Shown piece by piece: positions 106 to 53,700 of a stretch of 64,000 bases of DNA. The position numbers were made by a program, and so were the translations under genes. How positions within the stretch are numbered: position 1 is the first letter of the stretch; the number at the start of each line of letters is the position of its first letter. The notes under the pieces are model-generated. The model made no database searches. It was not told the origin of the DNA and saw only the letters and a list, made by a program, of their open reading frames with translations. The DNA is from Terriglobus sp. RCC_193. GTDB lineage: Bacteria > Acidobacteriota > Terriglobia > Terriglobales > Acidobacteriaceae. The DNA is taken from NCBI RefSeq assembly GCF_041355105.1, contig NZ_JBFUPK010000002.1, positions 248,001 to 312,000 on the forward strand. Reading direction: 5' to 3'.

Positions 106-406
106 ATGGAAACTGGAAGACACAGGTCCAAAATGGGAACCGGGTGCCCCAGGTTCGCGAAGCTAACCTGGGTATCGCGGCTACGGCGCGATCCTACGGT
201 CGAAGACCGTCATTCTGAGCAAAGCGAAGAATCCCGACGAACTTCACTGCTCCAATACCGTCCGTCCCTTTCAGCCAGGGAAGCCAAAACCAGCTTCGCG
301 ACGCGAAGCTCCAACGCACGAAGTGCGTCTGCTTTCGGGAAGGGCAGGGCTTCAGCCCTGCCGTGAAAACCGCAACAACAAGGGGCTTTAGCCCCTGAGG
401 GGATCC
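106..406. repeat. intergenic mosaic of short palindromic repeats
   Basis: No gene is supported here. The gap holds, left to right: a hairpin with arms CCCAGGTT and AACCTGGG around GCGAAGC (142-172); ACGGTC-GAA-GACCGT (196-210); an ATTCTGAGC...GCGAAGAAT hairpin (212-232); AGCTTCGCG-A-CGCGAAGCT (292-310); ACGCAC-GAA-GTGCGT (314-328); GGCAGGGC-TTCA-GCCCTGCC (343-362); and GGGGC-TTTA-GCCCC (382-395). The same units recur in most later gaps in a similar order. The short frame at 106-366 simply reads through them. Confidence 0.9.
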
Positions 407-2125
407 CTACTGCACAAAGCTAGCCGGAACCGGCGGCACATCGCTCACATCCCCCAGCAACTCCCACCGCTGCAGGCTGAACGGCACACTGCCATTGCTC
501 CACACATAGTCCTGATACTTCTGCAACGAGAACGCCGCACCCTGCTTCAACTTCGCAGCCGCCAGCCCCTTCATGATGTCGCTCTTGCCAATCTGGTAGG
601 TGATCGCCTGTCCCGGCGTCGTCGAAAACATCGCCGCTTCACTCCGTGCCGTTCCCTCATCCATAGGCACCGTGTTCTTCAGGTAATCCGCCGCCTGCTG
701 TAGCGTGAACTGTCCGGTAGCCAGCTTCACATCCACCTCCACACGCAACGCACGTAAACGGTTCAGCGCATAGATGGCTTCCTTCATCTTTGGCTGTGTC
801 TCATACAGCCCGGCAATCATCATCATCTCTTCCGCGTAGAAGCCAATGCCCTCCTGCGACTCCGAGTCGTAGTACATCCGCCGCACCGGATCAGGATGAT
901 GCATGGCCCACGCCATCTGGAAGTAGTGGCCCGGCGTGCCCTCATGGTTCGTTAGCGGACGCACATCGCGCGAGGTAATGTTCGCCCAGAAGCCGCCCAG
1001 CCGCGGCGTGCTCTTGTAGCTCGAACCGTCTTCATCCAGGCGGTTCACGCTGGTCAGGTCATCCTCGACACCGAGAAAGCCAAGCGCCCCAATGTATTTC
1101 GGCGTCGGCACATAGTAGTAGTGCTTCACACCTGTCGGATCGCCGTTCAGCACACCGTGCTCCGTCATGTACGAGCGCATCGCCGCTTCCTGCTTCTTCT
1201 CATCTGCAATCTGCGCACCCAGCGACGGATACACCGGCACATCCGGCACGCCCTTGTTCGCCGCCTGCGCCAGCGCCTCAAAGGTCACGGCACGATCAAA
1301 CTCCAGCTTGCCCGTCTGCAGAATCTGCTCTGGCGTGTAGCTCATCAACGCAACATTCTTCAGAAACCACACATAACCATCGCGCCCCACCGCTGTCTGT
1401 TGCTTCATGCCCGCCACCTGCGGGCGCAGCCATTCGCGATATGCCACCATCGCCTTCACGGCAGCATCTTCGGCCTTGTCGAACTCCGCAAGCTCCTTCG
1501 TATCAAAGCCTGCCTCCGCATGAACACCGTCTTTGAAGCGGCCCATGCGATCCTCAATCTTCGCCAGATTCTCCATGCAGATCACGGCATACGGCTGCCG
1601 CATATCCGTCAGGTTCGACTTGCCCTCATCCAGCAGACGCGGCAAACTCGCCAGCCGCAGCACCACGTCGTGCTGCATCTGCGGCGTGAACTTCCTGTGC
1701 TGCAACAGCAATGTGTACGTGGCAGTCAGCCCCTGATCGACGTAGAAGAACGGGTTCCGCTGCCACACCGGCAGCACATCCAGTTCCCAGTACACGCGCG
1801 CAATCGCCGAACCCACCAGCCGATAATCCACCCGCGTACTCACCGGCTGTTGAGTCACATCCAGCGCTCGCCACTCCTTCTCAAACGCTGCAATCTGCTT
1901 GCGATACCCCGCCACATCCGCCGCCGACCAGTGCGCCACAAACCCATGCGCGCGGTCGATACGCGGAATGTCGTCATTCGTAAAAGGCTGCTCCGTCGCG
2001 CGCCACTCCCAGAACTTCGCGCTCAGACGTTCCACATCTGTCTGTGTGGAGGCGTGCGCAAACACGCAGGAAACAACAGCAAAGGACGCGGCAGCAACGC
2101 GGCAAAGCAGCTTGGATGTAGGCAT
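407..2125 (-). CDS. DUF885 family secreted metallopeptidase-like protein
   Basis: Protein of about 572 residues with a cleavable signal peptide (hydrophobic run ending near AHA) and the hallmarks of the DUF885 family: an HExxPGH zinc-site motif (H394, E395, H400) followed about 30 residues later by an EGxGxYAEE motif (E425). The family is regarded as gluzincin-like metallopeptidases, and the exported location suggests peptide breakdown in the periplasm. I chose the ATG at 2125; a TTG two codons upstream is also open. It stands alone, with repeat-filled gaps on both sides. The exact substrate is not known. Confidence 0.8.
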   Translation of the reverse strand: MPTSKLLCRVAAASFAVVSCVFAHASTQTDVERLSAKFWEWRATEQPFTNDDIPRIDRAHGFVAHWSAADVAGYRKQIAAFEKEWRALDVTQQPVSTRVDYRLVGSAIARVYWELDVLPVWQRNPFFYVDQGLTATYTLLLQHRKFTPQMQHDVVLRLASLPRLLDEGKSNLTDMRQPYAVICMENLAKIEDRMGRFKDGVHAEAGFDTKELAEFDKAEDAAVKAMVAYREWLRPQVAGMKQQTAVGRDGYVWFLKNVALMSYTPEQILQTGKLEFDRAVTFEALAQAANKGVPDVPVYPSLGAQIADEKKQEAAMRSYMTEHGVLNGDPTGVKHYYYVPTPKYIGALGFLGVEDDLTSVNRLDEDGSSYKSTPRLGGFWANITSRDVRPLTNHEGTPGHYFQMAWAMHHPDPVRRMYYDSESQEGIGFYAEEMMMIAGLYETQPKMKEAIYALNRLRALRVEVDVKLATGQFTLQQAADYLKNTVPMDEGTARSEAAMFSTTPGQAITYQIGKSDIMKGLAAAKLKQGAAFSLQKYQDYVWSNGSVPFSLQRWELLGDVSDVPPVPASFVQ

Positions 2126-2174
2126 GCACAAACACTACCGCATCCCCGCCCAAGTGGAAAGCCGTTCATCTGCC

Positions 2175-2457
2175 TAACCAAATTGTGCCAAGCCTCAACA
2201 TCGAGCGGCCAGCCTGCGAAGCTCGTACGGTCGAAGACCGTCATTCTGAGCGCAGCGAAGAATCCCGACACACTTCACCGCACCACAGCCGCCAAATCCC
2301 TTCCAGCCACAAAACCACACCAGCTTCGCTTCGCGAAGCTCGTACGGTCGAAGACCGTCATCCTGAACGAAGCGAAGCGGAGCTGAAGCATGCCCTCGAG
2401 CGAAGCGAAGGGGACCTGCATTCCTCTCGAGTGACTACAACGCTTCAAGAAATCTGA
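2175..2457. repeat. intergenic palindrome mosaic
   Basis: Gap between the DUF885 gene and the GH28 gene. It contains two copies of ACGGTC-GAA-GACCGT (2227-2241 and 2344-2358), each followed directly by a CATTCTGAGC or CATCCTGAAC repeat core. The GCTTCGCTTCGCGAAGC palindromic piece lies near 2325. No coding potential was recognised. Confidence 0.85.
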
Positions 2458-2490
2458 TCACGAATCTTCCACGCACCCCTCGACAAAATA

Positions 2491-5120: not shown

Positions 5121-5513
5121 TTATCCGGCAGAAGGACGGACCGTGCGCTCCAGCCAGGCCGTCCATTCCTCTTCCGCAATCTCACTCGCCGCCGCACGCA
5201 GCGTCATGGTGAGAACTTCCGATTCGGGACAGGCCAACCTGTGCCCGTTCAGCGCAAGAAATGCAACAAGCGATCCCAGTCCCACTCGCTTGTTGCCGTC
5301 GATGTAGACATGGTTCTTGATCAGGCCCCAACTCAATGCCGCAGCGAGCACTGCGAGGGAAGCATTCGGATCATAGTGATAACGATTTTCAGCGCGATCC
5401 AGCGCGGACCTCAGAAGTCCCTCGTCACGAAGTCCATGGGCACCGCCATACACTTCGATCGAGTCCTTCTGAATCCTGCAGACCGCTTCCACCGATAGGA
5501 AGCGAGGAGTCAT
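5121..5513 (-). CDS. doc: Doc-type Fic toxin (death-on-curing family)
   Basis: Protein of 130 residues with the Fic/Doc core motif HVYIDGNKR (H68 to R76). It matches the Doc form HxFxxxNKR, with Tyr in place of the usual Phe. Characterised Doc toxins phosphorylate elongation factor Tu and stop translation. The size is right for stand-alone Doc toxins. Its start codon overlaps the end of the upstream AbrB-type gene by four bases (ATGA), the usual layout of a type II toxin-antitoxin operon in which the antitoxin is made first. The Phe-to-Tyr change is conservative, so the toxin is probably active. Confidence 0.85.
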   Translation of the reverse strand: MTPRFLSVEAVCRIQKDSIEVYGGAHGLRDEGLLRSALDRAENRYHYDPNASLAVLAAALSWGLIKNHVYIDGNKRVGLGSLVAFLALNGHRLACPESEVLTMTLRAAASEIAEEEWTAWLERTVRPSAG

Positions 5514-5752
5514 TTTGCCAGTTCCCGATAGACCTCTGCGTAACGAGGCTCCGTACGTTTGTATGCAGCAAACGCCTCATCCGCAGAAACACGTAGGATC
5601 GAATCGGTAGTCGGCACAGGAGTGATCTCCAGCTTCCCCTCGACGATCTCAAGCTCCAGCTCTGCATCCTCACGCAGCGACAATGCTTCCATCTGCTCCT
5701 GCGTCAGCAGAATGGCGAGGCGGTCTCCAATGCGTTCCACGCGAAGAGTCAT
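5510..5752 (-). CDS. AbrB/MazE-type antitoxin
   Basis: An 80-residue protein whose first 45 residues have the swapped-hairpin AbrB pattern (MTLRVERIGDRLAILLTQEQ, then acidic strands ELELEIVEGKLEI). The C-terminal half is polar and likely binds and neutralises the Doc toxin encoded four bases into its stop codon. AbrB-type antitoxins usually repress their own promoter, which here must lie in the 87-base gap shared with the divergent DNA glycosylase gene. Confidence 0.75.
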   Translation of the reverse strand: MTLRVERIGDRLAILLTQEQMEALSLREDAELELEIVEGKLEITPVPTTDSILRVSADEAFAAYKRTEPRYAEVYRELAK

Positions 5753-10268: not shown

Positions 10269-10326
10269 GGACTTTCAGCAGAGGATTATCCAGCTTCGCA
10301 AAGCGAATCTCTTACGAACAAAGTTC

Positions 10327-10799
10327 GTCATCCTGAGCGGAGCGCAGCGGAGTCGAAGGACCTGCTTTCTTTTCGCGCCACTACAACTTCGAAGGAAACG
10401 CAGGATGCCAAGAGAAGCCTACGTCTACATCCTAGCCAGCAAAAGCCGCACGCTGTACATCGGCATGACGACGAATCTGGATGGACGCATCCTCGAACAC
10501 AAAGCTGGGACGCTGGAAGGCTTCAGCAAGGATTACAACTGCACTCGCCTCGTGTACTACGAGGTCTGCGGTGGCCCGCTTGCCGCAATTTCGCGAGAGA
10601 AACAACTTAAGGGCTGGCGACGTGAAAAGAAGATTGCGCTGATCGAGAAGGTGAATCCCACATGGGAAGATCTTGCGGAGGATCTTGGAAAGCCTGTTCA
10701 GTCTTATCGCGGGAAGAGATGATTGCTCTCCATGAGAGGATGCAGAGGGCAGAGAAGAAAGCAGGTCCTTCGACTCCGCTTCGCTCCGCTCAGGATGAC
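10327..10799. mobile_element. GIY-YIG gene framed by 45-bp inverted repeats
   Basis: The left arm (10327-10371) starts GTCATCCTGAGCGGAGCG and ends GGACCTGCTTTCTT. The right arm (10755-10799) is its reverse complement with a single mismatch over 45 bases. Between them lies only the GIY-YIG gene. The arm sequence is itself one of the dispersed intergenic repeats, found as solo copies elsewhere in the window. This is the layout of a small element with terminal inverted repeats, or of a repeat family with its own nuclease gene. Mobility is inferred, and no target duplication was identified. Confidence 0.55.
10405..10722 (+). CDS. GIY-YIG single-domain nuclease
   Basis: A 105-residue protein made of one GIY-YIG domain: YVYIL (Y6 to L10) as the GIY strand, LYIGMT (L17 to T22) as the YIG strand, then R28, EH (E31, H32) and the metal-ligand glutamate E65 in SREKQLK. 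These match the catalytic residues of small GIY-YIG endonucleases of the COG2827/YhbQ type. It should cut DNA in a metal-dependent way. It lies exactly inside a pair of 45-bp inverted repeats belonging to the dispersed repeat family, with nothing else between the arms. A domesticated repair role is the alternative to a repeat-mobilising role. Confidence 0.85.
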   Translation: MPREAYVYILASKSRTLYIGMTTNLDGRILEHKAGTLEGFSKDYNCTRLVYYEVCGGPLAAISREKQLKGWRREKKIALIEKVNPTWEDLAEDLGKPVQSYRGKR

Positions 10800-10885
10800 G
10801 GTGTCTGGGGCGAGGAAGAATAATGGGTGAAGAAAACAGTCCCGCGCTACGCTCGGGATGACGGCATTTAAATAGGGGAAGCCGT

Positions 10886-16863: not shown

Positions 16864-17040
16864 CTAAGGGCCAAAGGCCCGACAAATCTTAGCCTAGGCC
16901 GAAGGCCTAGGTAGGAAGCCCATCATCACAAGCGCTGAAGGCGCGCCCTATCGTGCGTCACCCTGAGCGAAACAAAGTGAAGTCGAAGCATGCCCTCGAG
17001 TGAAGTCGAAGGGGACCTGCATTCCTATCCCGCACTGCGA
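16864..17040. repeat. dispersed palindromes
   Basis: GGGCC-AAA-GGCCC (16868-16880), then CCTAGGCC-GAA-GGCCTAGG (16893-16911), then a GCGCTGAAGGCGCGCC unit (16931-16946) and a CACCCTGAGCGAAAC repeat core with GGGACCTGCATT. All are recurring intergenic units. The remaining bases up to 17140 hold only the promoter region of the acetyltransferase gene. Confidence 0.85.
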
Positions 17041-19264: not shown

Positions 19265-19979
19265 GCCAAGAACCGGGTGCCCCAGGTTCACGAAGCCACA
19301 AAAGCGGGTGCCCCAGGTTCGCGAAGCTAACCTGGGCCATCGCGCTTCAGCGCGATCATACGGTCAACAGACCGTCATTCTGAGCAAAGCGAAGAATCCC
19401 GATGACATCTCACGCGCCAAAACTGTCGAACGCTTCCAGGCACGAAAGCCAAAGCTTCGCAAAAGCGAAGCTCGTACGGCCAAGGTCTATCCCCGACAAG
19501 AATGTTCTGTGCTTCATCGCGCTTCAGCGCGATCCTACGGTCAGCAGACCGTCATTCTGAGCGAAGCGAAGAATCCCGACGGAACTCCATGCACCACAAC
19601 TGTCCAAAGAATTCCGTCACAAAAACGGGTGCCCCAAGGTTCGCGAAACTAACCTGGGGCATCACGCATCAGCGTGATCCTACGAATTATTCTGAAGCAC
19701 CAAAGATGTAGGCCAGCACAGCAACAAGCGCCAAAGGCGCGCCGACATATTAGCCTGGGCCGAAGGCCCAGGTAGAACACACCCACGAAGCCCAAGGGCC
19801 AACGGCCCGCTCTATCCCACACCCAAGAAAGCCAATTTTGCTGGGCCATCGCGCAAAGCGCGATCATACGGTCGAAAGACCGTCATCCTGAACGAAGCGA
19901 AGCGGAGCTGAAGCATGCCCTCGAGCGAAGAGAAGGGGACCTGCATTCTTCTCCCGCACTACGATACACCAGGAAACCG
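19265..19979. repeat. large gene-free mosaic of palindromic repeats
   Basis: Over 700 bp with no supported gene. It contains one partial and two full-length copies of the CCCAGGTT...AACCTGGG hairpin (19274-19297 partial, 19306-19336, and 19627-19659 with an extra base), ATCGCGC-TTCA-GCGCGAT pairs, ATCACGC-ATCA-GCGTGAT, ATTCTGA-GCGAAGC-GAAGAAT (19554-19574), and CCTGGGCC-GAA-GGCCCAGG (19754-19772). It ends in a CATCCTGAAC / GGGGACCTGCATT unit. The last palindrome differs from CCTAGGCC-GAA-GGCCTAGG by a compensated base pair. Confidence 0.9.
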
Positions 19980-20315
19980 CTACCGATACTCCTCACGAGC
20001 AGGCGTGAACACATCCAGCACCTCGCTCTCCACCGCAGCCGAAGCCTGATGCACCACGTCCCCGGGCACCATCACGCTATCCCCTGCCCGCAGCGTATAC
20101 GTCGAGCCATCGACGACCAGCGCAATCTCACCGCTCAACACATAGATCAACTGCTCATGCGGATGCGAATGAGCAGCGCCCACCCAACCAGCCTCCATGC
20201 GATGCCGCACCAACATCATCGGGTCGGTCGAAGCCATCACCTGCCGTCGCAAACCCGGCTCAGGCGCGGTCATCTTCGCATCGTCCGCAGCAATCACTTT
20301 CAACATGGCGCTCAC
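19980..20315 (-). CDS. cupin domain protein
   Basis: A 111-residue single cupin. The metal-site motif AHSHPHEQ is followed by YVLSGE and then PGDVVHQ, giving the usual conserved histidines of a small beta-barrel with one metal ion. The substrate is not predictable. It begins with a GTG that overlaps the ddl stop (GTGA), suggesting coupling; an ATG three codons inside at 20306 is the alternative. Its link to ddl may be only regulatory. Confidence 0.8.
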   Translation of the reverse strand: MSAMLKVIAADDAKMTAPEPGLRRQVMASTDPMMLVRHRMEAGWVGAAHSHPHEQLIYVLSGEIALVVDGSTYTLRAGDSVMVPGDVVHQASAAVESEVLDVFTPAREEYR

Positions 20316-26067: not shown

Positions 26068-26240
26068 AACAAACTTTACTTGCACCAATCAGTGAAGCTC
26101 AAACGAACTTTACTTGCATCAATCAGCCTGTCCCGAAACAAACTTTACTTGCACCAATCAGCGAAGCTCAAACGAACGAAGTTCGTCATCCTGAGCGAAG
26201 TCGAAGGACCTGCATTCCTCTCAGCCTCTACAACGCGTCA
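26068..26240. repeat. three direct repeats plus a dispersed repeat copy
   Basis: AACTTTACTTGCA(C/T)CAATCAG occurs three times (starting near 26071, 26105 and 26141), the first and last followed by GAAGCTCAAACG. Then ACGAAC-GAA-GTTCGT (26172-26186) leads into CATCCTGAGCGAAGTCGAAG and GACCTGCATT. No gene is seen in this gap. Confidence 0.85.
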
Positions 26241-28039: not shown

Positions 28040-28280
28040 GTATACCTGCGTCATTCTGAGCGCAGCGAAGCTCCTACGATCAAAGACCGTCATTCTGAGC
28101 AAAGCGAAGAATCCCAACGCATTCTCCCGCAACGACACGCTCAAACCCTTCCAGCCACAAACCTCAAACCAGCTTCGCAAAGCGAAGCTCATACGCACAA
28201 AGTGCGTCCTTCTTTCGGAGGGGCAGGGCTTCAGCCCTGCCGTAAAACCCACAACCAACAAGTGGCTTTAGCCGCGGAGG
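28040..28280. repeat. dispersed palindrome mosaic
   Basis: Gap of about 380 bp before the DUF6807 terminator. It contains an ATTCTGAGC...GCGAAGAAT unit, AGCTTCGC-AAA-GCGAAGCT, ACGCAC-AAA-GTGCGT (28193-28207), a GGCAGGGC-TTCA-GCCCTGCC hairpin near 28224-28243, and a GTGGC-TTTA-GCCGC-like unit. No gene is supported. Confidence 0.85.
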
Positions 28281-28290
28281 GAATCCTGAA

Positions 28291-28335
28291 CAAAAAGAAA
28301 AGGCCTCGCCCGGACCAGGGCGAAGCCTCTAAAAA
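28291..28335 (-). terminator. intrinsic terminator of the Gfo/Idh-DUF6807 operon
   Basis: AGGCCTCGCCC (28301-28311) pairs with GGGCGAAGCCT (28318-28328) across a six-base loop, with one mismatch. Reading on the minus strand, the stem is followed by a TTTTCTTTTTG run. It is 15 bases past the DUF6807 stop codon. Confidence 0.8.
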
Positions 28336-30974: not shown

Positions 30975-31418
30975 TGTCAGCAAAGCTTGTACGCGTAAGG
31001 CGCGTCATCCTGAACGAAGCGAAGCGAAGTTGAAGCATGCCCTCGAGCGAAGCGAAGGGAACCAGCATTCCTCTCAACCCTCTACAACGCATCAGGAAAC
31101 CCCAAAACGAACCACCAGCCAAAGAACCGGGTGCCCCGGGTTCGCGAAGCTGACCTGGGCATCGCTCCAAAGGAGCGATCCAACGCACAAAGTGCGTCCA
31201 GCAAAGCCCCAACGGTCAAAGACCGTCATTCTGAGCAAAGCGAAGAATCCCCACGAACTCTCCTCCTGCCAAGACCCCACAAGCTTCCAGTCAAGGAACC
31301 CAAACCAGCTTCGCAAAGCGAAGCTCATACGCACGCAGTGCGTCGCTTTCGGAAGGGCAGGGCTTCAGCCCTGCCGTAACAGCCACAATCAACAAGCGGC
31401 CTTAGCCGCTGAGGGGAT
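30975..31418. repeat. dispersed palindrome mosaic
   Basis: The rest of the 680-bp gap holds a CATCCTGAACGAAGCGAAGC unit, a GGGTGCCCCGGG variant of the CCCAGGTT hairpin (31129-31159), ATCGCTCC-AAA-GGAGCGAT, ACGCAC-AAA-GTGCGT, ACGGTC-AAA-GACCGT, an ATTCTGAGC...GCGAAGAAT unit, AGCTTCGC-AAA-GCGAAGCT and GGCAGGGC-TTCA-GCCCTGCC. No gene is seen. Confidence 0.88.
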
Positions 31419-35252: not shown

Positions 35253-35280
35253 TGAGGCCCAAAGCCTCATCCGTTTTTTA
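35253..35280 (+). terminator. intrinsic terminator after the M28 peptidase
   Basis: TGAGGC pairs with GCCTCA over a CCAAA loop, and a T6 run follows at 35275-35280. It is the first of a tandem series of similar units. Confidence 0.7.
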
Positions 35281-35594
35281 TTGCAACCGCCTTAGCACGC
35301 TGAAGCCTCGCCCAAAGCCTCAATCGTTTTTATTGCAGCCGCCTTGGCACCTCGAAGCCCCGCCCCGAAGCCTCATTCGTTCTTGTTGTTGCAGCCGCCT
35401 TGGCACGCCAAAGCCTCATCCGAAGCCTCATCCTTTTTTATTGCAACCGCCTTCATACCCCGAAGCCTCGCCCAAAGCCTCATCCGTTTTTTATTGCAGC
35501 TGCCTTAGTAGCCGAAACCCCGCTCAAAGCCTCATCTGCTTTTTATTGCAACCGCCTTAGCACGCCAAAGCCTCAATCTGTTTCTATTGTTCGT
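35260..35594. repeat. about seven degenerate tandem repeats, terminator-like
   Basis: The unit CAAAGCCTCATCCGTTTTTT followed by ATTGCAACCGCCTTAGCACGC and GAAGCCTCGCC, about 52-57 bp long, is repeated around seven times with drift. Each unit repeats the AAGCCTC arm and the T-run of the terminator just upstream, so it looks like local amplification of a terminator. No coding potential. Confidence 0.85.
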
Positions 35595-35639
35595 ACAGAA
35601 AGAGCCTGATGACGCAAACAAACATCATCGGGTCGATGA

Positions 35640-35940
35640 ATCAAGGGCCAAAGGCCCGCCAAGATATTAGCCTAGGCCGAAGGCCTAGGTAGATGGCCAT
35701 ACACCGCAAAAGCGCTGAAGGCGCGCCCTATGCCCAGCCACAAAAACCGAATACGCAGAAACAGGGTGCCCCAGGTTCGCGAAGCTAACCTGGGTATCGC
35801 GCAGCTTTTCGAGAACGGTACGAAGTACGCGATCCAACGCACCAAGTGCGTCCAGCCAAGCTCATACAGTCAAAGACCGTCATCCCGAGCGAAGCGAAGG
35901 GGACCTGCATTCCTCGCAACCCTCTACAACGCCAATAGGA
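35640..35940. repeat. dispersed palindrome mosaic
   Basis: GGGCC-AAA-GGCCC (35645-35657), CCTAGGCC-GAA-GGCCTAGG (35671-35689), a GCGCTGAAGGCGCGCC unit, the CCCAGGTT...AACCTGGG hairpin (35764-35794), ACGCAC-CAA-GTGCGT, and a CATCCCGAGCGAAGCGAAG unit with GGGACCTGCATT. No gene is seen between the M28 peptidase and the aldo/keto reductase genes. Confidence 0.88.
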
Positions 35941-37061: not shown

Positions 37062-38366
37062 ATGAAGCGTCTGCTGCCGCTGCTCCTGTTCACCGCCACG
37101 CTCCTGCCTGCCCAGCAACAACCCACAGCCACCAACGAACGCTGGCAACTCACCGCTGACTTCTACGGAGCAACGCGCTACTACCGGCTCGATCTGGACC
37201 AGCACGACACCACCCACGTGTCCGGCACATACAATGGCACACACCTCGCCGGCACCAACACGGGCGGCCACCTCAAAATCGAAGGCACAGAAAACGGCAA
37301 CCACGTCATCGTCGACGCGCATCAGGATCACGATGCCCTCACCGGCACAGTCACCTTCGGCGAAATCGCATCGCCTCTCATCTGCCCTTTCACGGCCACG
37401 CTCGTGAAACCTCTGCCCAAAACCACGCCGCAAACGCACGAGTTCAAACCCACCACCTACTACCGCCAGTACTCAGCGCTCAACAAGCCCGTGCTGCACA
37501 TCAACCCCGGCGACACGATCCACACCACCACCGTAGACGCGGGCGGCAACGACGAAAACAACATCAAGCGCATCGCCGGCGGCAATCCGCAAACGGGCCC
37601 GTTCTACATCGCAGGCGCACAGCCCGGCGACACCATCGCCATCCACATCCAGAAGCTCCGCCTCAATCGCGACACCGCCGGCTCCAACGACGATTTCGTA
37701 CAGTCCGCGTCGTCTCCCTCGCTCGCCGTTCGCACGCGCGACAACCACAGCAGCATCACATGGAAGCTCGACCGCGTACACATGACCGCATCGCCGGACT
37801 CCGGCAGCGCCGCATTAAAAGACCTGAATATCCCGTTGCGTCCCATGCTCGGCTGCGTCGCGGTAGCGGTCGCTCCCAGCGACGCACCACCACCCACCGG
37901 CGACTCCGGCTACTACGGCGGCAACATGGATTTCAATGAAATCGGCGAAGGAGCCACCGTCTATCTTCCCGTCATCAATCCCGGTGCCCTGCTCTACTTC
38001 GGCGACGCGCACGCGCTGCAGGGCGACGGCGAACTCAACGGCAACGCGCTCGAAACATCGATGGATGTCACCGTCACCGTCGACCTCATACAAGACCGCA
38101 AAACCGGCTTCCCCCGCATCGAAACCCCAACGCAGTTCATCGCACTGGGCTACTCCGGCTATCTCGACGACGCCCTCAAAGACGCCACCGCCAACATGGC
38201 AGGCTGGCTCGCCAACATTTACAAACTCAACCCCAGTGAACTCGGCCAGTTCCTGGGCGCCGCCGCACAATACCGCGTCACAGAAGTGGCCGACCGCAAC
38301 TCCGGCATCGCGCTAAAAATCGACAAGTCCTTACTCAACAACCTGCACATCCCGCCAACGCAATAA
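37062..38366 (+). CDS. exported acetamidase/formamidase family protein with N-terminal extension
   Basis: A 434-residue protein with a signal peptide (ending LLPAQ), about 100 residues of beta-rich sequence (residues 22-125), then an FmdA/AmdA domain with LNIPLRPMLGCVAVAVAP, GYYGGNMDFNEIGEGATVYL and FGDAHALQGDGE. The enzyme family hydrolyses formamide or short amides. Most members are cytoplasmic and lack the N-terminal domain, so an exported fused form is unusual. It is divergent from the aldo/keto reductase gene across 145 bases. Confidence 0.82.
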   Translation: MKRLLPLLLFTATLLPAQQQPTATNERWQLTADFYGATRYYRLDLDQHDTTHVSGTYNGTHLAGTNTGGHLKIEGTENGNHVIVDAHQDHDALTGTVTFGEIASPLICPFTATLVKPLPKTTPQTHEFKPTTYYRQYSALNKPVLHINPGDTIHTTTVDAGGNDENNIKRIAGGNPQTGPFYIAGAQPGDTIAIHIQKLRLNRDTAGSNDDFVQSASSPSLAVRTRDNHSSITWKLDRVHMTASPDSGSAALKDLNIPLRPMLGCVAVAVAPSDAPPPTGDSGYYGGNMDFNEIGEGATVYLPVINPGALLYFGDAHALQGDGELNGNALETSMDVTVTVDLIQDRKTGFPRIETPTQFIALGYSGYLDDALKDATANMAGWLANIYKLNPSELGQFLGAAAQYRVTEVADRNSGIALKIDKSLLNNLHIPPTQ

Positions 38367-38379
38367 GCTCGCACGGCCA

Positions 38380-38955
38380 AACACCGTCTCACCACACCAG
38401 CGAAGCTCAAACAGTCAAAGACCGTCATCACCAGCGAAGCTCCTACGGTCAAGAACCGTCATCCTGAAGCTCATACCGTTGCAGACCGTCATCCTGAACG
38501 AAGCGAAGCGGAGCTGAAGGACCTGCATTCCTACACACCCTCTACAACGCACCAGGAAACCCAAAACAAACCAGCAGCCAAAACCGGGTGCCCCAGGTTC
38601 GCGAAGCTAACCTGGGTTATCGCGCAAAGCGCGATCCAACGGCCAAAGGCCGTCATTCTGAGCGCAGCGAAGAATCCCGACGAACTCTCATCCTGCCAAA
38701 GACCCCACCAACTTCCAGCCACCACCCAAACCAGCTTCGCAAAGCGAAGCTCATACGATCGAAGATCGTCATCCTGAACGAAGCGAAGCTGAAGCATGCC
38801 CTCGAACGAAGCGAAGGGGACCCGCATTCCTCCACACCCTCTACAACGCACAAGGAAACCCCAACAGACCAGCAGCAAAAACCGGGTGCCCCAGGTTCGC
38901 GAAGCTAACCTGGGCAGAGCGGCAAAGAAACGATCAACGCACCAAGTGCGCCAGC
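38380..38955. repeat. dispersed palindrome mosaic
   Basis: A gap of about 570 bp filled with repeats: CAGTC-AAA-GACCG, a CATCCTGAAC unit, two CCCAGGTT...AACCTGGG hairpins (38587-38617 and 38884-38914), ATCGCGC-AAA-GCGCGAT, ACGGCC-AAA-GGCCGT (38639-38653), an ATTCTGAGC...GCGAAGAAT unit, AGCTTCGC-AAA-GCGAAGCT and ACGATC-GAA-GATCGT (38755-38769). Its right end overlaps the last codons of the VOC gene. Confidence 0.9.
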
Positions 38956-39368
38956 GAAGCTCCATCGCCTGTTGTCGCCGCAAATTCGTCTTTGTTTGGA
39001 TAGTTGAAAAACAGCTGGTTGCCGTCCGGATCGTTCACCACCAATACCCGGTAGCCCCACGAAGCATCCCGCACCATAACGCCTCGGGATTCCAGTTCCG
39101 CACGCAACCCATCCAGCGCGGCGACAGACGCCTCATATGTCTCCGGTTCGACATTCAGTGATACGAAGATCAGCCCGTTACCAATCTTCTCTGGCAGGTT
39201 ATTCGTCAGGATCAGCGCGCACCGCTGCCGCTCCACCTGCGCCACACGCAGTCTGCCGTCTTCGTCATATCGCCAGGGATTCGTGAAGCCCAGCCGCTCC
39301 ACATAAAAGCGCAGCGCAGCCGCAACATCCGTCACCTGCAGAACCGGCCGCGCAAACCACTCTGTCAT
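38934..39368 (-). CDS. VOC family protein (glyoxalase/bleomycin-resistance fold)
   Basis: A 144-residue vicinal-oxygen-chelate protein. FARPVLQVTDVAAALRFYVE opens the first beta-alpha-beta module, and GYRVLVVNDPDGNQLFFNYP closes the second with the usual DPDGN turn and Glu/Asn metal-side position. The role (glyoxalase-like, dioxygenase-like or resistance) cannot be fixed. The last 12 or so residues (TTGDGASLAHLVR) and the stop codon are read from a dispersed repeat, so the native C-terminus has probably been replaced by repeat insertion. Confidence 0.82.
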   Translation of the reverse strand: MTEWFARPVLQVTDVAAALRFYVERLGFTNPWRYDEDGRLRVAQVERQRCALILTNNLPEKIGNGLIFVSLNVEPETYEASVAALDGLRAELESRGVMVRDASWGYRVLVVNDPDGNQLFFNYPNKDEFAATTGDGASLAHLVR

Positions 39369-39438
39369 CGGTCATGTCCTTTCCAACACGAAAGACAGCC
39401 TTTGATCGCAGTATCCCACAAGCCATTTCAATGAAGCA

Positions 39439-41166
39439 TCAGTGTGCGTCCAGCGTAATCTTTCCCACCACCTTCGGAGGCCGCTTCAGGAACAGCACCA
39501 TCGGCAACAAACACGCCAGGATATAAGCAAACAGACGGTACTGATCCATGTACGCCAGTAGCAACGCCTGCTGCTGCACCTGGTGATACAGCAATGCCAT
39601 TCCGTCATACGTCTTGTCGATGGCAGCGCCACCCATCGCAGCACCCGCCGACTTGATCTGTTGCATCACACCCGGCGAAGACGAAGTAATGTCCGCACTC
39701 AGATACGTCTGGTGCGCCTGCGTCATGCGTTGCAGAAACGTACTCGAAAGCGCAATGCCAATCGATCCGCCCTCATTGCGCACCAGCGCATAAATACCCG
39801 CGGCATTGCTGCTCTGGTCCGCAGGCAGAAAGCGGAACATGATCGTCGACAGCGGCACCGTCGTCATGCCAAGCCCCATCACCTGCAACACACGCGGCCA
39901 GATCAGGTTCGTCTCTGCCACGCTGAGATTGCCCAGCGACAACCAATAAGTACCCGCCGTCATGGTGATAATGCCGCACGCAATCAATCGCCGCGCATCG
40001 GTGCCCTTGCTCAGCAACCAACCAATCAGCGGCACTTCCAGCATCGTCACCAAACCCGCAGGCGACACCGCGATACCCGCAGTCGTAGCGTCATAGCCCA
40101 TCAACTCCTGCATGAACTGCGGCAACAGGAACGTCGTCGCATACAGCGCCGTGTACATACCCAGCACAATCACGCAGCAGAACAGAAAGTTGCGTTCCTT
40201 CAACAGCCGCAGATTCACCACTGGGTTCTTCACATGCAGTTCCCAGAAGATCGCGCCCACCACCGCCACCACGGCGATGATCGTGCTCCACAGGATGAAC
40301 GAATTACCGAACCAGTCCAGCTCCTGCCCACGGTCCAGCACAATCTCCGTCGCCGCAAGACCAATACTGACCAGCGCCAAACCCGTGCCATCAATCTGTA
40401 TCGGCTTGCCCTTGCGTGCCTCGCGCGCCTTCGTCAGGTGCGGCGGATCATGCAGCACCATGCGCGTGAAGATGGCACACAGAACGCCCACTGGAATGTT
40501 GATGTAGAAGATCCAGCGCCACGAATAGTTATCCGTAATCCATCCGCCCAGCGTCGGCCCCAGCACCGGCGCGCACAGAATCGCCACGGTATACACGGCC
40601 ATCGCCATGCCACGCTTCTCACCCGGAAACGCATCGGCCAGAATCGCCTGCACACTCGGCTGCAAACCGCCACCGGACAACCCCTGCAACACGCGGAACA
40701 CCACCAGGGCAGCCAGCGTCGGCGCAACGCCGCAAAGCGCAGAAAAGATCGTGAAGAGAATGACCGATCCAAGATAAAAATTCCGCCGTCCAAGAATGCT
40801 TGAAATCCATCCACTGATCGGCAGAATGATCGCGTTCGCCACGAGATAACTCGTCAGCACCCACGTGCTCTCATCCTGCGAAGCGGAAAGGCTGCCCGCA
40901 ATATGCGGCAACGCCACGTTCGCAATCGAGGTATCCAGCACCTCCATGAACGTGCCCATCGTCACCACCAGCGCAATAATCCACGGATTGAACACACGCG
41001 GTTCCCGCACACGAGCCAGCGGCACACCCGGCTCAAATTCCGCCGCAGAGGGAGCCAACGCCGTCTCGGCGCGATCCATCACCTCTTCCGCATGATGCAA
41101 CGATGCCGCCACATCAGATTCCCCCGCAGGCGGCACGTCGTTTTCTTCGTCCTGTAATGACTGCAT
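39439..41166 (-). CDS. DHA2 family MFS multidrug efflux transporter (EmrB/QacA type)
   Basis: A 575-residue transporter with about 14 membrane spans. The DHA2 signatures are visible: FMEVLDTSIANVALPHIAGS (motif D1), then WVLTSYLVANAIILPISGWI, GRRNFYLGS and the antiporter motif C in APVLGPTLGGWITDNYSWRW. It exports drugs or hydrophobic compounds using the proton gradient. An acidic N-terminal extension of about 55 residues precedes the first span. It is divergent from a TetR-type regulator 414 bp away, the usual layout for regulated efflux. Confidence 0.92.
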   Translation of the reverse strand: MQSLQDEENDVPPAGESDVAASLHHAEEVMDRAETALAPSAAEFEPGVPLARVREPRVFNPWIIALVVTMGTFMEVLDTSIANVALPHIAGSLSASQDESTWVLTSYLVANAIILPISGWISSILGRRNFYLGSVILFTIFSALCGVAPTLAALVVFRVLQGLSGGGLQPSVQAILADAFPGEKRGMAMAVYTVAILCAPVLGPTLGGWITDNYSWRWIFYINIPVGVLCAIFTRMVLHDPPHLTKAREARKGKPIQIDGTGLALVSIGLAATEIVLDRGQELDWFGNSFILWSTIIAVVAVVGAIFWELHVKNPVVNLRLLKERNFLFCCVIVLGMYTALYATTFLLPQFMQELMGYDATTAGIAVSPAGLVTMLEVPLIGWLLSKGTDARRLIACGIITMTAGTYWLSLGNLSVAETNLIWPRVLQVMGLGMTTVPLSTIMFRFLPADQSSNAAGIYALVRNEGGSIGIALSSTFLQRMTQAHQTYLSADITSSSPGVMQQIKSAGAAMGGAAIDKTYDGMALLYHQVQQQALLLAYMDQYRLFAYILACLLPMVLFLKRPPKVVGKITLDAH

Positions 41167-41229: not shown

Positions 41230-41520
41230 GTCAAAACGGGCAAGGCCTTACAAGCTAATCTCTTACGATCAGAGGACGCCACCCAGCGAAGCTCATACGA
41301 ACGACGTTCGTCATCCAGCGAAGCTCAAACGGTCGCAGACCGTCATCCTGAACGAAGCGAAGCGGAGCTGAAGGACCTGCATTCCTCTCAACCTTCTACA
41401 ACGCACCAGGAACCCCCAACAAACCAGCAGCCACAAACCCGGGTGCCCCAGGTTCACGAAGCTAACCTGGGCCGAGCAGCAAAGCCGCTCTCTATCGCGC
41501 GAAAGCGCGACCACCCCCTC
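41230..41520. repeat. dispersed palindrome mosaic in a divergent promoter region
   Basis: Between the efflux gene and the tetR gene: ACGAAC-GAC-GTTCGT, a GGTCGCAGACC unit, a CATCCTGAACGAAGCGAAGC unit, the CCCAGGTT...AACCTGGG hairpin with GTTCACGAAGC inside (41441-41471), GAGCAGC-AAA-GCCGCTC and TCGCGC-GAAA-GCGCGA. The true promoters must be at the outer ends, next to the genes. Confidence 0.85.
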
Positions 41521-41580
41521 TGAAAATCAGACAAACAAAGCGGCTCCATCCCCCGGCAACCGTGTTAGTTTGGGGCAGGA

Positions 41581-49384: not shown

Positions 49385-49812
49385 GTCGATACAGCCTAGT
49401 CAAACGCCCAGAGGCCGTCATTCTGAGCGAAGCGAAGAATCCCGACGAACTCTCATCCTGCCAAAGCGGCGTGGAGCTTTCAACCACGAACCCAAAACCA
49501 GCTTCGCAAAGCGAAGCTCATACGGTCGGAAGACCGTCATCCAGCGAAGCTCATACGCGCAAAGCGCGTCATCCTGAACGAAGCGAAGCGAAGCTGAAGG
49601 ACCTGCATTCCTGTCCACCACTCCGATGCAACAGGAAGAACAAACAACATCCCAGCCACCATCGGCAGGATTGATCCACAGAGCTCGATGAATCGTTGTA
49701 ACCGCAGCTACCACCACACCAAGCGCCAAAGGCGCGACCAGATATTAGCCTAGGGGCGAAGCCCTAGGTACAAGCGCCAACAAAAGAAAAGGGCCAAAGG
49801 CCCGCCCTATCC
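49385..49812. repeat. dispersed palindrome mosaic
   Basis: Repeats present include an imperfect CGCCC-AGA-GGCCG unit, ATTCTGA-GCGAAGC-GAAGAAT (49420-49440), AGCTTCGC-AAA-GCGAAGCT, ACGGTC-GGA-AGACCGT, ACGCGC-AAA-GCGCGT (49555-49569), a CATCCTGAACGAAGCGAAGC unit, GCGCC-AAA-GGCGC, CCTAGGGGC-GAA-GCCCTAGG and GGGCC-AAA-GGCCC. No gene is supported. Confidence 0.9.
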
Positions 49813-50597: not shown

Positions 50598-52127
50598 ATG
50601 CGTTGGCTAACCTGCAGTTCAACTCGGAAGATTGCGGCCGCGGCCCTCGCTCTCTCACTCAGTCCCGGCCTCTTCGCGCAGAAAGCCGTCACCACAGACA
50701 GCGGTGCCCTCATCGGCAAAACCGATGGCAACGTGCGTAGTTTCCTCGGCATTCCCTATGCCGCGCCGCCGCTCGGCTCTCTGCGATGGAAGGCTCCGGA
50801 ACCGGTCAAGCGCAGCACCGCACCACTGGCCGCAGACAAGATCGGCCCGGCCTGTATGCAGAAACTCTCGCGCAGCCATCTGCCCTGGACCGAAGCCTTC
50901 ATGGTGCAGAACGACATCAGCGAAGACTGCCTCACGCTCAACGTGTGGACCGCCGGTTCACTCAGCGGACATCGCCCCGTGCTCGTCTATCTGCACGGTG
51001 GCGGCTTCGTCGAGGGCAGCGGGGGCGTCGCCAGCTATGACGGCACACAACTCTCGAAGAGCGGCCTCATCGTCGTCACGGTGAACTTCCGCCTCGGCAT
51101 CTTCGGCTACTTCGCCAGTTCTGCCCTGCGCGCGGACAGCGGCCACGACAGTGCAGGCAACTACGCTCTCGCCGACCAGATCGCCGCGCTTGACTGGGTG
51201 AAGAAAAACATCGCAGCCTTCGGTGGCGACCCGCAGCGCATCACCGTCGCAGGCCAAAGCGCAGGCGCAGAATCCGTTGCAGAACTACTCGCATCGCCCA
51301 AGGCAAAAGGCCTGTTCCAACGCGCCATCCTCAACAGCGATCCGCTGCTGTGGCCCGCCACAACGGTTGCCTCGCTCGACGAAGCGGCGAAGCTCGGCGA
51401 CGCCTTCACCGCCAAGTACGGCGGCACACTGGATGCTCTCCGCGCAGTTCCTGCCGAAACTCTGCTCAACGCACCGGACGCACCACCGAAACGCCCTGTT
51501 GTGGATGGCTACTGGCTCACCGAACAGCCCGGTGACGATCTCGTACACCCTGTTGGCAGTGACGTTCCTGTCATGCTCGGCTGGGTCAAAGACGAAGGCT
51601 TCCCCACACAGAAGCTCTCCGCAGAAGCCTTCCGCGCCGACGTCGTAAAGAAGTATGGCGACAACGCCGAACGCTTCCTGAAGCTCTATCCCGCACAGGA
51701 TGACGAGCAGGCAGCAACCAGCCAGATCCAGGCAGGCCGCGACCGCAACATCGCCATCTCCACCCTCTATGCCGACGCCTACCAGCGCCGCCGCCAATCC
51801 TCCGTCTACCTCTACTGGTTCGCGCGAACGCCACCGTGGAAGGCGCACCCCGAGTTCGGCGCACACCACACCGCGGAAGTGCCCTACTTCTTCGAAACAC
51901 TCGATCAGGTAAAAGACCGCGACTACGAAGACGCCGACTACGTCGTGAGCAAAATCGCAGGCGGCGAGTGGCTCAAGTTCGCCGCCACCGGCAAACCCTC
52001 GTCCACATGGGTCTCAGCGCAACACGGCGGCGGCCCCTTCTACGTCATCGACGTCACACCCAAAACCCAATCGCAACTCGACGCAGCCCGCGCAGCCTTC
52101 TGGAAAGCCACTCTGCTGAAGCACTAA
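50598..52127 (+). CDS. secreted type-B carboxylesterase
   Basis: A 509-residue alpha/beta-hydrolase of the carboxylesterase/lipase family with signal peptide ending at LFA. It contains the family blocks FLGIPYAAPPLGSLRWKAPE, SEDCLTLNVW, YLHGGGF (oxyanion hole) and the nucleophile elbow GQSAGAES. The catalytic histidine is in FGAHHTAEVPYFF. It should hydrolyse esters outside the cytoplasm. I used the ATG at 50598, which begins the signal peptide; an open frame extends about 200 codons further upstream but is antisense to the neighbouring gene. Confidence 0.88.
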   Translation: MRWLTCSSTRKIAAAALALSLSPGLFAQKAVTTDSGALIGKTDGNVRSFLGIPYAAPPLGSLRWKAPEPVKRSTAPLAADKIGPACMQKLSRSHLPWTEAFMVQNDISEDCLTLNVWTAGSLSGHRPVLVYLHGGGFVEGSGGVASYDGTQLSKSGLIVVTVNFRLGIFGYFASSALRADSGHDSAGNYALADQIAALDWVKKNIAAFGGDPQRITVAGQSAGAESVAELLASPKAKGLFQRAILNSDPLLWPATTVASLDEAAKLGDAFTAKYGGTLDALRAVPAETLLNAPDAPPKRPVVDGYWLTEQPGDDLVHPVGSDVPVMLGWVKDEGFPTQKLSAEAFRADVVKKYGDNAERFLKLYPAQDDEQAATSQIQAGRDRNIAISTLYADAYQRRRQSSVYLYWFARTPPWKAHPEFGAHHTAEVPYFFETLDQVKDRDYEDADYVVSKIAGGEWLKFAATGKPSSTWVSAQHGGGPFYVIDVTPKTQSQLDAARAAFWKATLLKH

Positions 52128-52244
52128 TCTACTTAAGCGTTAAGAGGGTTCACTGACTTCAAGGATGCGTTGTGGGGAATCGCCAACTTCAAGGATGCGT
52201 ATGTGGGACTTGTTCGCTGAAGCATTCTCTGCGGGTGCCCACAC

Positions 52245-52930
52245 CTCTACAACGCATTAGGAAGCCCAACAAACCAGCAGCCGCAAAACCGGGTGCCCCA
52301 GGTTCGCGAAGCTAACCTGGGCATCGCGCAACGGGCGATCCTACGGCCAAAGGCTGCGACCAAGCACCAAAGATAACCAAGCACCGAAGACAACCAGGTA
52401 CCGAAGACAACCGGCACCGAAGACAATCAAGCACCGAAGACAATCAAGCGCCAAAAGCAATCAAGCGCCAAAAGCAATCAAGTACCAAAAGCAATCAAGC
52501 ACCAAAGGCAATCAAGGACCAGAGGCAATCAAGGACCAGAGGCGCGACAAGATGAAAAAATATCACCTGGGCCGAAGGCGCGAAGATATGCGATAAGGGC
52601 CAAAGGCCCGACGAAATATTAGCCTAGGCCGAAGGCCTAGGTAAGATTGCCTCGCAAGTAGCAAGGGCCAAAGGCCCGCTCTATCTCTTCCCTCACAAAG
52701 CGGGTGCCCCAGATTCGCGAAAGCTAACCTAGGCATGGAAGTGATGCGAGAAGAAAGCAGGTCCTTCGGCTTCGCTCAGGATGACGCGCGTTCGTGCGTT
52801 GGAGCTTCGCGAATGCGAAGCTGGTTTGGGTTTTGTGGCTGGAAAGGGTTTGAAGGTTTCGTTGCGGGAGAGTGTGTTGGGATTCTTCGCTTCGCTCAGA
52901 ATGACGAACTTTGTTCGTACGATTCGAAGC
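52245..52930. repeat. palindrome mosaic, including one inverted composite
   Basis: No gene in this stretch. It holds the CCCAGGTT...AACCTGGG hairpin (52291-52321), a 17-bp tandem array (listed separately), GGGCC-AAA-GGCCC and CCTAGGCC-GAA-GGCCTAGG near 52600-52645, and a drifted copy of the long hairpin (52702-52733). From about 52740 to 52930 the composite unit occurs in the opposite orientation to all others: GCAGGTCCTTCGGCTTCGC, GAAGCTTCG parts, then ATTCTTCGCTTCGCTCAGAAT (52883-52902) and ACGAACTTTGTTCGT. Confidence 0.88.
52362..52548. repeat. 17-bp tandem array, 11 units
   Basis: Eleven consecutive units of 16-18 bp with consensus AAGCACCGAAGACAATC, total 187 bp. Variation is graded: ACAACC in the first units, CAATC in the middle, GAGGC near the end. 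Each unit retains a central ACC-RAA or CC-RAA core. No spacers or leader, so it is not CRISPR-like. Coding potential is absent. Confidence 0.9.
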
Positions 52931-52992
52931 CCGACCATCTCCGCAAACCCGAGCAGCGTCCTATCCCGTATAGAAGAAAGGTCCAGGACCCA

Positions 52993-53280
52993 ATGGCTGA
53001 GAAGAACGAAGAATTTGTCACCGTGGCAAGCTACTCCGAAGTGGGCGAGGCGTCCGTCGCACAAAGCGTACTCGACGGAGCCGGCATCGACTCCTTCCTC
53101 AGCGGCGAAGAAGCGAACATCCTGCTCCCCGTAAGCGGTGCCCGCCTCCAGGTACGCGCGGAAGACGTCGAAGCGGCACGCGAACTTCTGAACAGCGTCC
53201 CACTCTTCGTAGAAGACGGGGTAGCCGTAGGCGAAACCGCAAAAGGCGCCTCCCTCGCCGACAACGGCGACGAACTCTAA
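52993..53280 (+). CDS. DUF2007 domain protein
   Basis: A 95-residue protein with the DUF2007 pattern: VTVASYSEVGEASVAQSVLD near the start, SFLSGEEANILLP and LQVRAEDVEAARELL. The family, suggested to be a signal-transducing domain, is small and uncharacterised. The ATG at 52993 is preferred; the upstream extension to 52735 is repeat DNA. The C-terminal 20 residues are acidic. Confidence 0.8.
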   Translation: MAEKNEEFVTVASYSEVGEASVAQSVLDGAGIDSFLSGEEANILLPVSGARLQVRAEDVEAARELLNSVPLFVEDGVAVGETAKGASLADNGDEL

Positions 53281-53700
53281 TACTTCCTGCTACGAACCCC
53301 CGCGTCGCAAATACTTCCTGCTACGAACCCGCGTCGCAAACGAACCCAAACCGGCGTCGCGAACGAACCCAAACCAGCTTCACGACGAACTCAAAACAGC
53401 TTCACGAACGAACCCGAACCAGCTTCACGAACGAACTCAAAACCAGCTTCGCGAAAGCGAAGCTCCAACGCGCAAAAGCGCGTCTTCTTTGAAGGGGCAG
53501 GGCTTCAGCCCTGCCGTAAACAATCGCAACCAAGAAAACCGCGCGGCCCAAAAGACAAACAGGAGCATGAAGCAAACCCCGCGCGCTCACAGAAGATCAT
53601 GGCTGGCCGCTCTTCGAGAACGGTACGAAGTACCGCCGAAGGCGTCGAGAACGGCACGAAGTGCTGTCAAGCCCCCAAACCATCCAACTCCAACAAACCA
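53281..53700. repeat. tandem and dispersed repeats
   Basis: ATACTTCCTGCTACGAACC occurs twice (53280 and 53310), then AACGAACCCAAACC-type units five times (to 53450), then AGCTTCGC-GAAA-GCGAAGCT, ACGCGC-AAAA-GCGCGT (53468-53483) and GGCAGGGC-TTCA-GCCCTGCC (about 53497-53516). A few GAACGGTACGAAGTACCG-type units follow. No gene is supported. Confidence 0.85.

Follow-up and report, generated by a model that had tools for sequence, protein, structure and literature searches.

Short hairpins of a Terriglobus genome as probable mobile DNA repeats, with a GIY-YIG nuclease as candidate enzyme for the CGTC-tagged family

What are the short hairpins scattered between the genes of Terriglobus sp. RCC_193, and in which molecule do they fold? 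The question arose from a stretch of 64,000 nucleotides (the window; contig NZ_JBFUPK010000002.1, positions 248,001 to 312,000) of this genome of about 4.2 Mb, labelled G000 here, with G005 and G008 as sister species. A preliminary description of the window had proposed a single class of hairpins with constant GAA or AAA loops and exactly paired, compensated stems, maintained in the folded form. The hairpins are probably mosaic arrays of mobile elements of the repetitive extragenic palindrome (REP) type, which fold in single-stranded DNA and belong to several families with element-encoded enzymes. With a slight lean in its favour, we further propose that a new class of element, which encodes only a small, hairpin-reading GIY-YIG nuclease, has REPs with a CGTC tag as its ends and as its non-autonomous offspring, and that the Rfam family Acido-Lenti-1 (RF01687) is the DNA end of subclass-1.2 transposons rather than an RNA gene. 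The novelty lies in matching repeat families to enzymes, most of all the GIY-YIG nuclease to the CGTC-REPs; what the enzymes do to the hairpins we infer.

The hairpin signal itself is strong. The eight hairpins quoted in the preliminary description are all present, letter for letter and in place. The window holds 51 perfect hairpins (stem of at least 6 pairs, loop of 3), compared with a mean of 19 and a maximum of 35 in 60 dinucleotide shuffles, and 25 with a GAA or AAA loop, compared with a mean of 0.75 and a maximum of 4; this excess over dinucleotide shuffles rules out a chance origin. All 27 window hairpins with GAA, AAA, TTC or TTT loops are intergenic, as judged with a home-made gene caller. 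They do not form the single class first described, as the ACG and CCTAGGCC hairpins are two distinct families, and the mosaic arrays combine further modules: A (the ACG mini-hairpin), B, C, CGTC-REPs, E (GGGTGCCCC), GGGCAGGGC repeats and CCTAGGCC repeats (Table 1).

The stems of the ACG hairpin covary across the genome. Among 84 copies selected by their flanks, 59 have all six pairs, compared with a mean of 19.4 and a maximum of 31 after shuffling of the 3' arms. A second retrieval, using only the left flank and the ACG/CGT foot, yielded 146 copies, of which 100 were listed and analysed; 84 of these 100 are fully paired (shuffle mean 22.1, maximum 36) and the remaining 16 have at least one mismatch, as do window copies at 15912, 28076 and 49404, so that the exact pairing first claimed holds for most copies and not for all. 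The search itself prescribed the ACG/CGT feet; of the inner pairs, 4 and 5 are Watson–Crick in 92 and 90 of the 100 listed copies (shuffle means 40 and 29.5), and the inner dinucleotides are of eight kinds (GT, AA, GC, CG, CA, AC, TG and AT). In the two sister species the ACG hairpin is fully paired in 14 of 17 copies (shuffle mean 4.0, maximum 10). The 84 flank-selected copies fall into 64 flank clusters, over which the eight fully paired stem types are spread in 45 type-by-cluster combinations, and a few recent duplications are thereby rejected as the source of the covariation. The loops are not constant, with GAA in 37, AAA in 28, GCA in 7, GTA in 4 and others in 8 of the 84 fully paired copies among the 100 analysed, and ACG hairpins with four- and five-base loops also exist.

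Genome-wide pairing and covariation give good support to the view that the folded form is kept. The first interpretation as a whole is supported in part, because hairpin-templated repair also yields compensated pairs, without any selection, two families had been merged and the loops vary; maintenance by selection does not follow from covariation alone. If one hairpin arm is rewritten from the other by template switching, compensated pairs would appear without selection for folding, and this would fit two observations. Two copies whose 70-nt right flanks agree to at least 90% bear different, fully paired stems in 24 of 102 such pairs; and G·T plus T·G mismatches, read on the strand given, are about as frequent as A·C plus C·A mismatches (12 and 15 in the 84 copies, 7 and 9 in the 100). 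The left flanks of the 24 pairs are unlike, however, so that the stem swaps can also stem from repeats having joined pre-existing, diverse hairpins, which is the simplest reading, with templated repair as the alternative. Arm-to-arm correction predicts neither a change of loop with stem strength nor a tie to enzyme genes across phyla, both of which are described below, and we consider it improbable as the general explanation.

Loop and stem are associated. Where the inner stem is GC-only (14 clusters), the loop is AAA in 12 and another in 2, with no GNA loop; where it bears A or T (33 clusters), the loop is GNA in 24, AAA in 5 and another in 4 (p = 8e-7). Within the 100-copy list, 19 of 22 GC-only stems carry AAA and one carries GAA, and transposase-end hairpins of other phyla follow the same trend more weakly (p = 3e-4, loci partly non-independent). 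This association looks like a levelling of hairpin strength, shared stem–loop ancestry being the alternative. GNA triloops are reportedly unusually stable in DNA. The RNA and DNA energy models used here score GAA and AAA triloops as equal and both favour four-base loops, so that the special stability of GNA loops rests on the literature, in which the d(GCGAAGC) hairpin is described as unusually stable in DNA (PMC10527192).

The 3' foot of the ACG hairpin is at the same time the CGTC tag of the repeat that follows it, CGTC-ATYCTGAGCGAAGCGAARAT. In this CGTC-REP, ATYCT pairs with AGRAT around an inner GC-GAA-GC, and the tail is CCC, not CCA. Its own stem also covaries, with T-A in 71, C-G in 3 and a mismatch in 2 copies of the source genome, and T-A in 8, C-G in 9 and a mismatch in 3 copies of other genus members. 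The search pattern has 107 exact matches in the source genome (0 for the reversed control), 56 in G013, 41 in G016 and none in 11 of the 19 genus members, and occurs in 56 of 200 family genomes. A sample of 168 copies was drawn from the window and loci L001–L081; C precedes GTCATYCTGA in 152 of them, which places a CGTC tag beside the stem, and 51 have at most three pairs where the ACG hairpin would be. These poorly paired copies, and the near restriction of the ACG module to three genomes (146 copies in G000, 12 in G008 and 5 in G005, with 1 in G001 and 0 in the other 15 genus members), indicate that CGTC-REP and ACG hairpin are separate modules.

CGTC-tagged REPs have been reported to "apparently lack a dedicated transposase" (Di Nocera et al. 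2013, PMC3733652), and the phyla listed for them in the available part of that paper do not include Acidobacteria. The repeats described here share with the published ones the CGTC or TGTC tag, the high copy number and the intergenic position, and several species named there as CGTC-positive were recovered (PMC3733652). An AT stem start is seen in many copies, and the inverted (HH) arrangement of most published dimers occurs in G013, with direct pairs in the source genome. The published stem form (8–9 bp, AT start, loop of 4–5, CCA tail) fits plasmid copies of Rhizobiaceae and Azospirillum well, and the stems of Novosphingobium and Sphingobium plasmid copies start otherwise than with AT. Relative to the available part of PMC3733652, two features differ: a covarying hairpin upstream often has the tag as its foot, and the repeats flank a GIY-YIG gene, where no enzyme had been found.

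This gene scores 51.3 bits against PF01541 (cut-off 22.6) and is the only one of 59 called window genes that, by inspection, is closely bracketed by inverted CGTC-REPs. VYI, Y18, G20, H32, E65 and N84 are invariant in nine proteins, and a profile (A2) detects the UPF0213 structures 1zg2 and 1ywl (E 4.1e-10 and 3.5e-6). The protein thus belongs to the same sequence family as the stand-alone UPF0213 proteins, whose solved members are named only as hypothetical; we know of no association of UPF0213 proteins with repeats. A PF01541 search of 24 family genomes gave 57 matches, 51 of them with loci: 32 stand-alone genes and 19 uvrC genes; of the latter, 8 were recognised from their start sequence and 11 only from the length of the open frame. 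Inverted ends exceeding 100 shuffles, with GTCAT in both, flank 25 of the 32 stand-alone genes and none of the 19 uvrC genes (p = 1.7e-8, several loci sharing one genome and hence not being independent). In genomes scored zero by the exact CGTC pattern, 7 of 9 GIY-YIG loci are bracketed by other GTCAT variants, so that the test is not restricted to CGTC-rich genomes.

The association extends to plasmids of other phyla. Among annotated plasmids, 36 records match the window protein, and 14 of the 18 analysed have inverted ends above shuffles, 12 of them with a CGTC or TGTC tag in both ends (tags read by eye; two Shinella loci share one site and three Sphingobium loci another, so that they are not independent). 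These twelve span three other phyla (Azospirillum, Novosphingobium, Sinorhizobium meliloti, Neorhizobium, Rhizobium CIAT894, two Shinella, three Sphingobium, Planktothrix and Spirosoma) and include species named CGTC-positive in 2013; their end stems vary between groups and stay paired. The CGTC-bounded gene separates sufB from sufC in Azospirillum lipoferum plasmid AZO_p3; the element of Planktothrix agardhii plasmid p1 has an MmeI-type restriction gene on one side and DISARM drmA on the other. The source genome holds three GIY-YIG elements, and its two main REP types match different ones by consensus; over 46 bases, 107 of the 168 sampled copies agree to at least 75% with an end of one of the three, a proportion that has no null and in which agreement of the first 11 bases follows from how the copies were selected.

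The GIY-YIG gene could instead be a passenger, with the CGTC-REPs moved in trans by Y1 or other enzymes and small genes caught between inverted repeats by chance. The source genome has five Y1 genes, CGTC REPs resemble GTAG REPs, whose enzymes are Y1 (PMC3733652), and two Y1 loci (L151 and L157) have a one-sided CGTC-like copy. Nevertheless, among 63 sampled Y1 loci, 58 with a called open reading frame (a few doubtful), none of the 58 has CGTC repeats at both ends, as judged from printed matches, and a Y1 transposase with two-sided CGTC repeats was rejected as the partner. G051 (99% complete) has 15 CGTC copies, no Y1 match and two stand-alone GIY-YIG genes that pass the bracketing test. The single bracketed gene of the window is the GIY-YIG gene, and in other phyla this enzyme again stands between CGTC repeats, there of differing local families. 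The passenger explanation retains real weight and is, to our mind, unlikely. A separate candidate, an orphan Y1 protein of the L032 type acting in trans, was rejected on G016 (98% complete), which has 41 CGTC copies and only the matches L089 and L101.

Such orphan Y1 genes with a Y-Q motif (L032, L091, L099, L100, L102 and L103) occupy the same conserved place in several species and lack bounding repeats; by eye, they adjoin apparent acetolactate synthase genes, and the L032-type gene is possibly domesticated.

In the mechanism that we propose, short REP-type palindromes would fold in single-stranded DNA, be recognised by an element-encoded enzyme and accumulate between genes as mosaic arrays. 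If the enzyme reads the pairing of the hairpin, letters could drift while pairs stay. CGTC-REPs would be the ends of small elements encoding the stand-alone GIY-YIG nuclease, with ACG hairpins sitting at the CGTC tag; the nuclease may nick at the tag beside the folded hairpin, and end copies may scatter as non-autonomous repeats and insert 3' of a CGTC, in many cases one that forms part of an ACG hairpin's foot; such a hairpin would then be a landing pad. That the GIY-YIG nuclease moves the CGTC-REPs, and that its substrate is single-stranded DNA, we infer. The enzyme proposed for the CGTC repeats is thus a GIY-YIG protein and not an HUH protein, in contrast to REPtrons. GIY-YIG homing endonucleases are likewise nucleases whose gene can promote its own spread; unlike them, the elements described here show no intron or intein that we noticed, are bounded by hairpin repeats and have many enzyme-less copies. 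In the literature searched we found no REP paper that mentions GIY-YIG, though papers beyond that search are possible, and a 2025 REP survey contains no word beginning with 'GIY' or 'nuclease'.

The CCTAGGCC hairpins are associated with a different enzyme. Two window copies match RF01687 at its gathering score of 37 (44.9 and 37 bits), which identifies them with the Rfam family; the difference is that they are here the terminal DNA repeat of a transposase element and there a free-standing RNA gene. A Y1 transposase of the source genome, L031, is bounded by inverted CCTAGGCC-type copies, and its motif YIDNQEEHH is the Y---Q--HH of TnpAY1 subclass 1.2. RF01687 matches at E 0.1 or better were obtained at one end or at both for 9 of 9 genus loci, which were picked after their ends had been seen. 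Of 467 relatives of the L031 group found in named genomes, the best 80, including four genus loci, were analysed: with matches counted anywhere within the 2.0–3.5-kb locus, RF01687 was found at E 0.1 or better in 43 of the 80 and at gathering score in 11, compared with 0 of 20 other Y1 loci taken as controls. Inverted ends above shuffles are present in 60 of 78 (two of the 80 loci being too short) and occur in Acidobacteria, Verrucomicrobia, Planctomycetes, Lentisphaerae, Kiritimatiellota and others. Of 122 cases of the main hairpin, at 68 loci of several phyla, 109 show full pairing, with 11 stem types and the outer two pairs fixed by the search, and in seven elements the hairpins of the two ends differ from each other and are both still paired. 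On the sequence evidence, the CCTAGGCC family (Acido-Lenti-1) is the end of small elements encoding an HUH (Y1) transposase of subclass 1.2. Within the literature searchable, two records seem to need revision: subclass 1.2 as lacking REPs, as given in the 2018 survey of REPtrons (PMC6006769), where the enzyme of this family is published as REP-less in the part available, and RF01687 as probably RNA, as recorded in 2010 (PMC2864571).

The latter record belongs to a broader alternative, namely that the hairpins work at the RNA level, as terminators, stabilisers or small RNAs, as Rfam files Acido-Lenti-1. The gathering-score matches in the window, the intergenic position of all 27 listed hairpins, the 2010 assignment (PMC2864571) and a regulatory role suggested in a 2026 paper (PMC13298647) are consistent with it. 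The same hairpin nevertheless stands in opposite orientations on either side of the transposase gene, so that no single transcript carries both in one sense. The mismatches have no G-U bias, and the parity of G·T and A·C led us to reject selection on plus-strand RNA as the main cause; the loop energies, on which RNA and DNA models agree, are uninformative. We regard an RNA function as quite improbable. Nuclease and transposase genes lie between inverted pairs of the hairpins, and the mismatches lack a G-U bias; on both grounds the evidence leans to single-stranded DNA rather than RNA as the molecule that folds.

Three further genes, L033, L034 and L035, score above the cut-off of the NCBI model for REP-associated tyrosine transposases (RAYTs) and are bounded by GGGCAGGGC, GGGTGCCCC and GGGGCCCGG hairpins, respectively; as families, GGGTGCCCC and GGGCAGGGC represent the ends of RAYT elements. 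The window's E hairpin bounds a RAYT (L149) of another genus (G087). The exact window E hairpin was at the ends of none of the Y1 genes found in the source genome, and its copies there therefore look orphaned. As in the RAYT/REP systems and REPtrons described (PMC6006769, PMC8266576), inverted hairpin pairs bound one small enzyme gene and non-autonomous copies exist. Stem pairing, to which we attribute recognition here, also matters in the tested group 3 TnpAREP enzymes, where a stem mismatch cuts or nearly abolishes cleavage and many stem letters can be swapped (PMC8266576).

The window and the sister species differ in the presence and length of arrays. G005 and G008 are 90–91% identical to the window over one 1.8-kb stretch and mostly 82–93% over common blocks. 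Twelve junctions were compared, and all nine that bear arrays are longer in the window, with the arrays absent or shorter in both sisters (380 bp versus 0 and 0; 445 bp between the conserved flanks of the 49404..49645 array versus 26 and 15). Some hairpins persist in the sisters, for example in 52125–52931. At 41276–41531, hairpins are absent from G005; two ACG hairpins are present in G008 and likewise in the window, where a 186-bp CGTC-REP/E array follows directly after CGTCA. The site resembles a stepwise growth from G005 via G008 to G000, which would place insertion 3' of CGTC. The hairpins common with G008 at this site each differ by one compensated pair, the first having a broken closing pair in G008, and at another common site G005 and G008 differ by an uncompensated change. 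The arrays were apparently gained in the window lineage, loss in the sisters being the alternative. Three rearrangement breakpoints relative to G005 and G008 (inversion or transposition) fall in arrays (19269–19984, 28031–28294 and 38347–39441), which suggests recombination between arrays.

Several observations weigh against the proposed elements. Compensation by templated repair, set out above, is one, and the ACG module is without an enzyme of its own. CGTC pairs, inverted in G013, are often direct and 116–117 bp apart in the source genome. Seven of the 32 stand-alone GIY-YIG loci fail the bracketing test, three of them with inverted ends that lack the tag in both, and in two of the 25 bracketed loci the tags face inward. 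Six of the 18 plasmid loci fail: four without inverted ends, the Methylobacterium locus, whose inverted ends are unrelated, and Sinorhizobium C101, with weak, untagged ends. The E. coli TnpAREP needs a conserved stem bulge, the opposite of perfect pairing (PMC8266576). The comparison of gain and loss comprises the window and two sisters.

The analysis offers a candidate enzyme for a repeat superfamily that, as reported in 2013, had no known mover and, if the proposal is true, a role for UPF0213 GIY-YIG proteins. It also suggests that an Rfam RNA family, read as a possibly regulatory RNA in 2026, is a transposon end, and it carries a warning that covariation, the standard evidence of structured RNA, can arise from single-stranded DNA structure.

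Table 1 Hairpins, repeats and the bracketed gene in the window (positions are those of the 64,000-nucleotide stretch)
Feature	Position	Strand	Remarks
Family E hairpin GGGTGCCCCAGGTT..AACCTGGG	137..181	+	
ACG mini-hairpin (module A)	196..210	+	abuts CGTC-REP at 208
ACG mini-hairpin	314..328	+	5' of L033-type RAYT repeat
L033-type RAYT repeat (GGGCAGGGCTTCAGCCCTGCC + GGGCTTTAGCCC)	333..406	+	more copies at 28212-28285, 31346-31419
Two ACG mini-hairpins, each followed by a CGTC-REP	2227..2358	+	CGTC at 2239, 2356
Hairpin AGCTTCGC-TTC-GCGAAGCT	2322-2340		between two ACG mini-hairpins
ACG mini-hairpin	10314..10328	+	immediately 5' of GIY-YIG element
Left CGTC-REP end of GIY-YIG element	10326..10372	+	inner limit approximate
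Stand-alone GIY-YIG gene	10405..10722	+	PF01541 51.3 bits; UPF0213-like; inverted CGTC-REPs on both sides
Right CGTC-REP end of GIY-YIG element, inverted	10750..10800	-	inner limit approximate
Acido-Lenti-1 type hairpin pair with CCTAGGCC-GAA-GGCCTAGG	16865..16913	+	RF01687 16867-16911, minus strand, 44.9 bits
Array of four-base-loop ACG hairpins, each followed by a CGTC-REP	19360..19883	+	hairpins at 19360, 19537, 19868
Acido-Lenti-1 type repeat, compensated stem CCTGGGCC-GAA-GGCCCAGG	19726..19774	+	
Module C of ATCGCGC-GCGCGAT type	19848, 38619		
ACG mini-hairpin and CGTC-REP	26172..26186	+	CGTC-REP at 26184; not seen there in the two sister species
Module B hairpin AGCTTCGC-AAA-GCGAAGCT and ACG mini-hairpin	28171..28207	+	B also at 31307, 38733, 49500
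Module C hairpin ATCGCTCC-AAA-GGAGCGAT and two ACG mini-hairpins	31161..31226	+	
Acido-Lenti-1 type repeat	35643..35691	+	RF01687 35644-35689, minus strand, 37 bits
Mosaic array: C, ACGGCC hairpin, CGTC-REP, B, ACGATC hairpin, CGTC-REP	38619..38812	+	
Tandem ACG hairpins	41297..41343	+	common to sister G008, with compensated differences
186-bp CGTC-REP/E array	41346..41531	+	right after CGTCA of second hairpin; absent in G008
Mosaic array: three ACG hairpins, CGTC-REPs, module B	49404..49645	+	one hairpin mismatched
Acido-Lenti-1 type repeats	49721..49769 and 52595..52643	+	
Two ACG hairpins, CGTC-REPs in opposite orientation	52784..52918	-	one hairpin mismatched
380-bp hairpin array	53284..53663	+	0-bp counterpart in both sisters
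More E hairpins, some altered	near 19301, 19623, 31124, 35759, 38581, 38879, 41436, 52286		

Some other features of the window were noted. Imperfect intergenic tandem repeats at 35274–35596 and 52347–52545 have units of about 52–56 bp and 17 bp, and the 17-bp unit is similar to decayed mini-hairpins. Across 52000–56000 the GC skew shifts from about −0.2 to about 0. A gene of the Fic/DOC family (PF02661) at 5121–5752 lies in a 1.19-kb block that is absent in both sister species; the small open reading frame beside it has no Pfam match and, by eye, is antitoxin-like.

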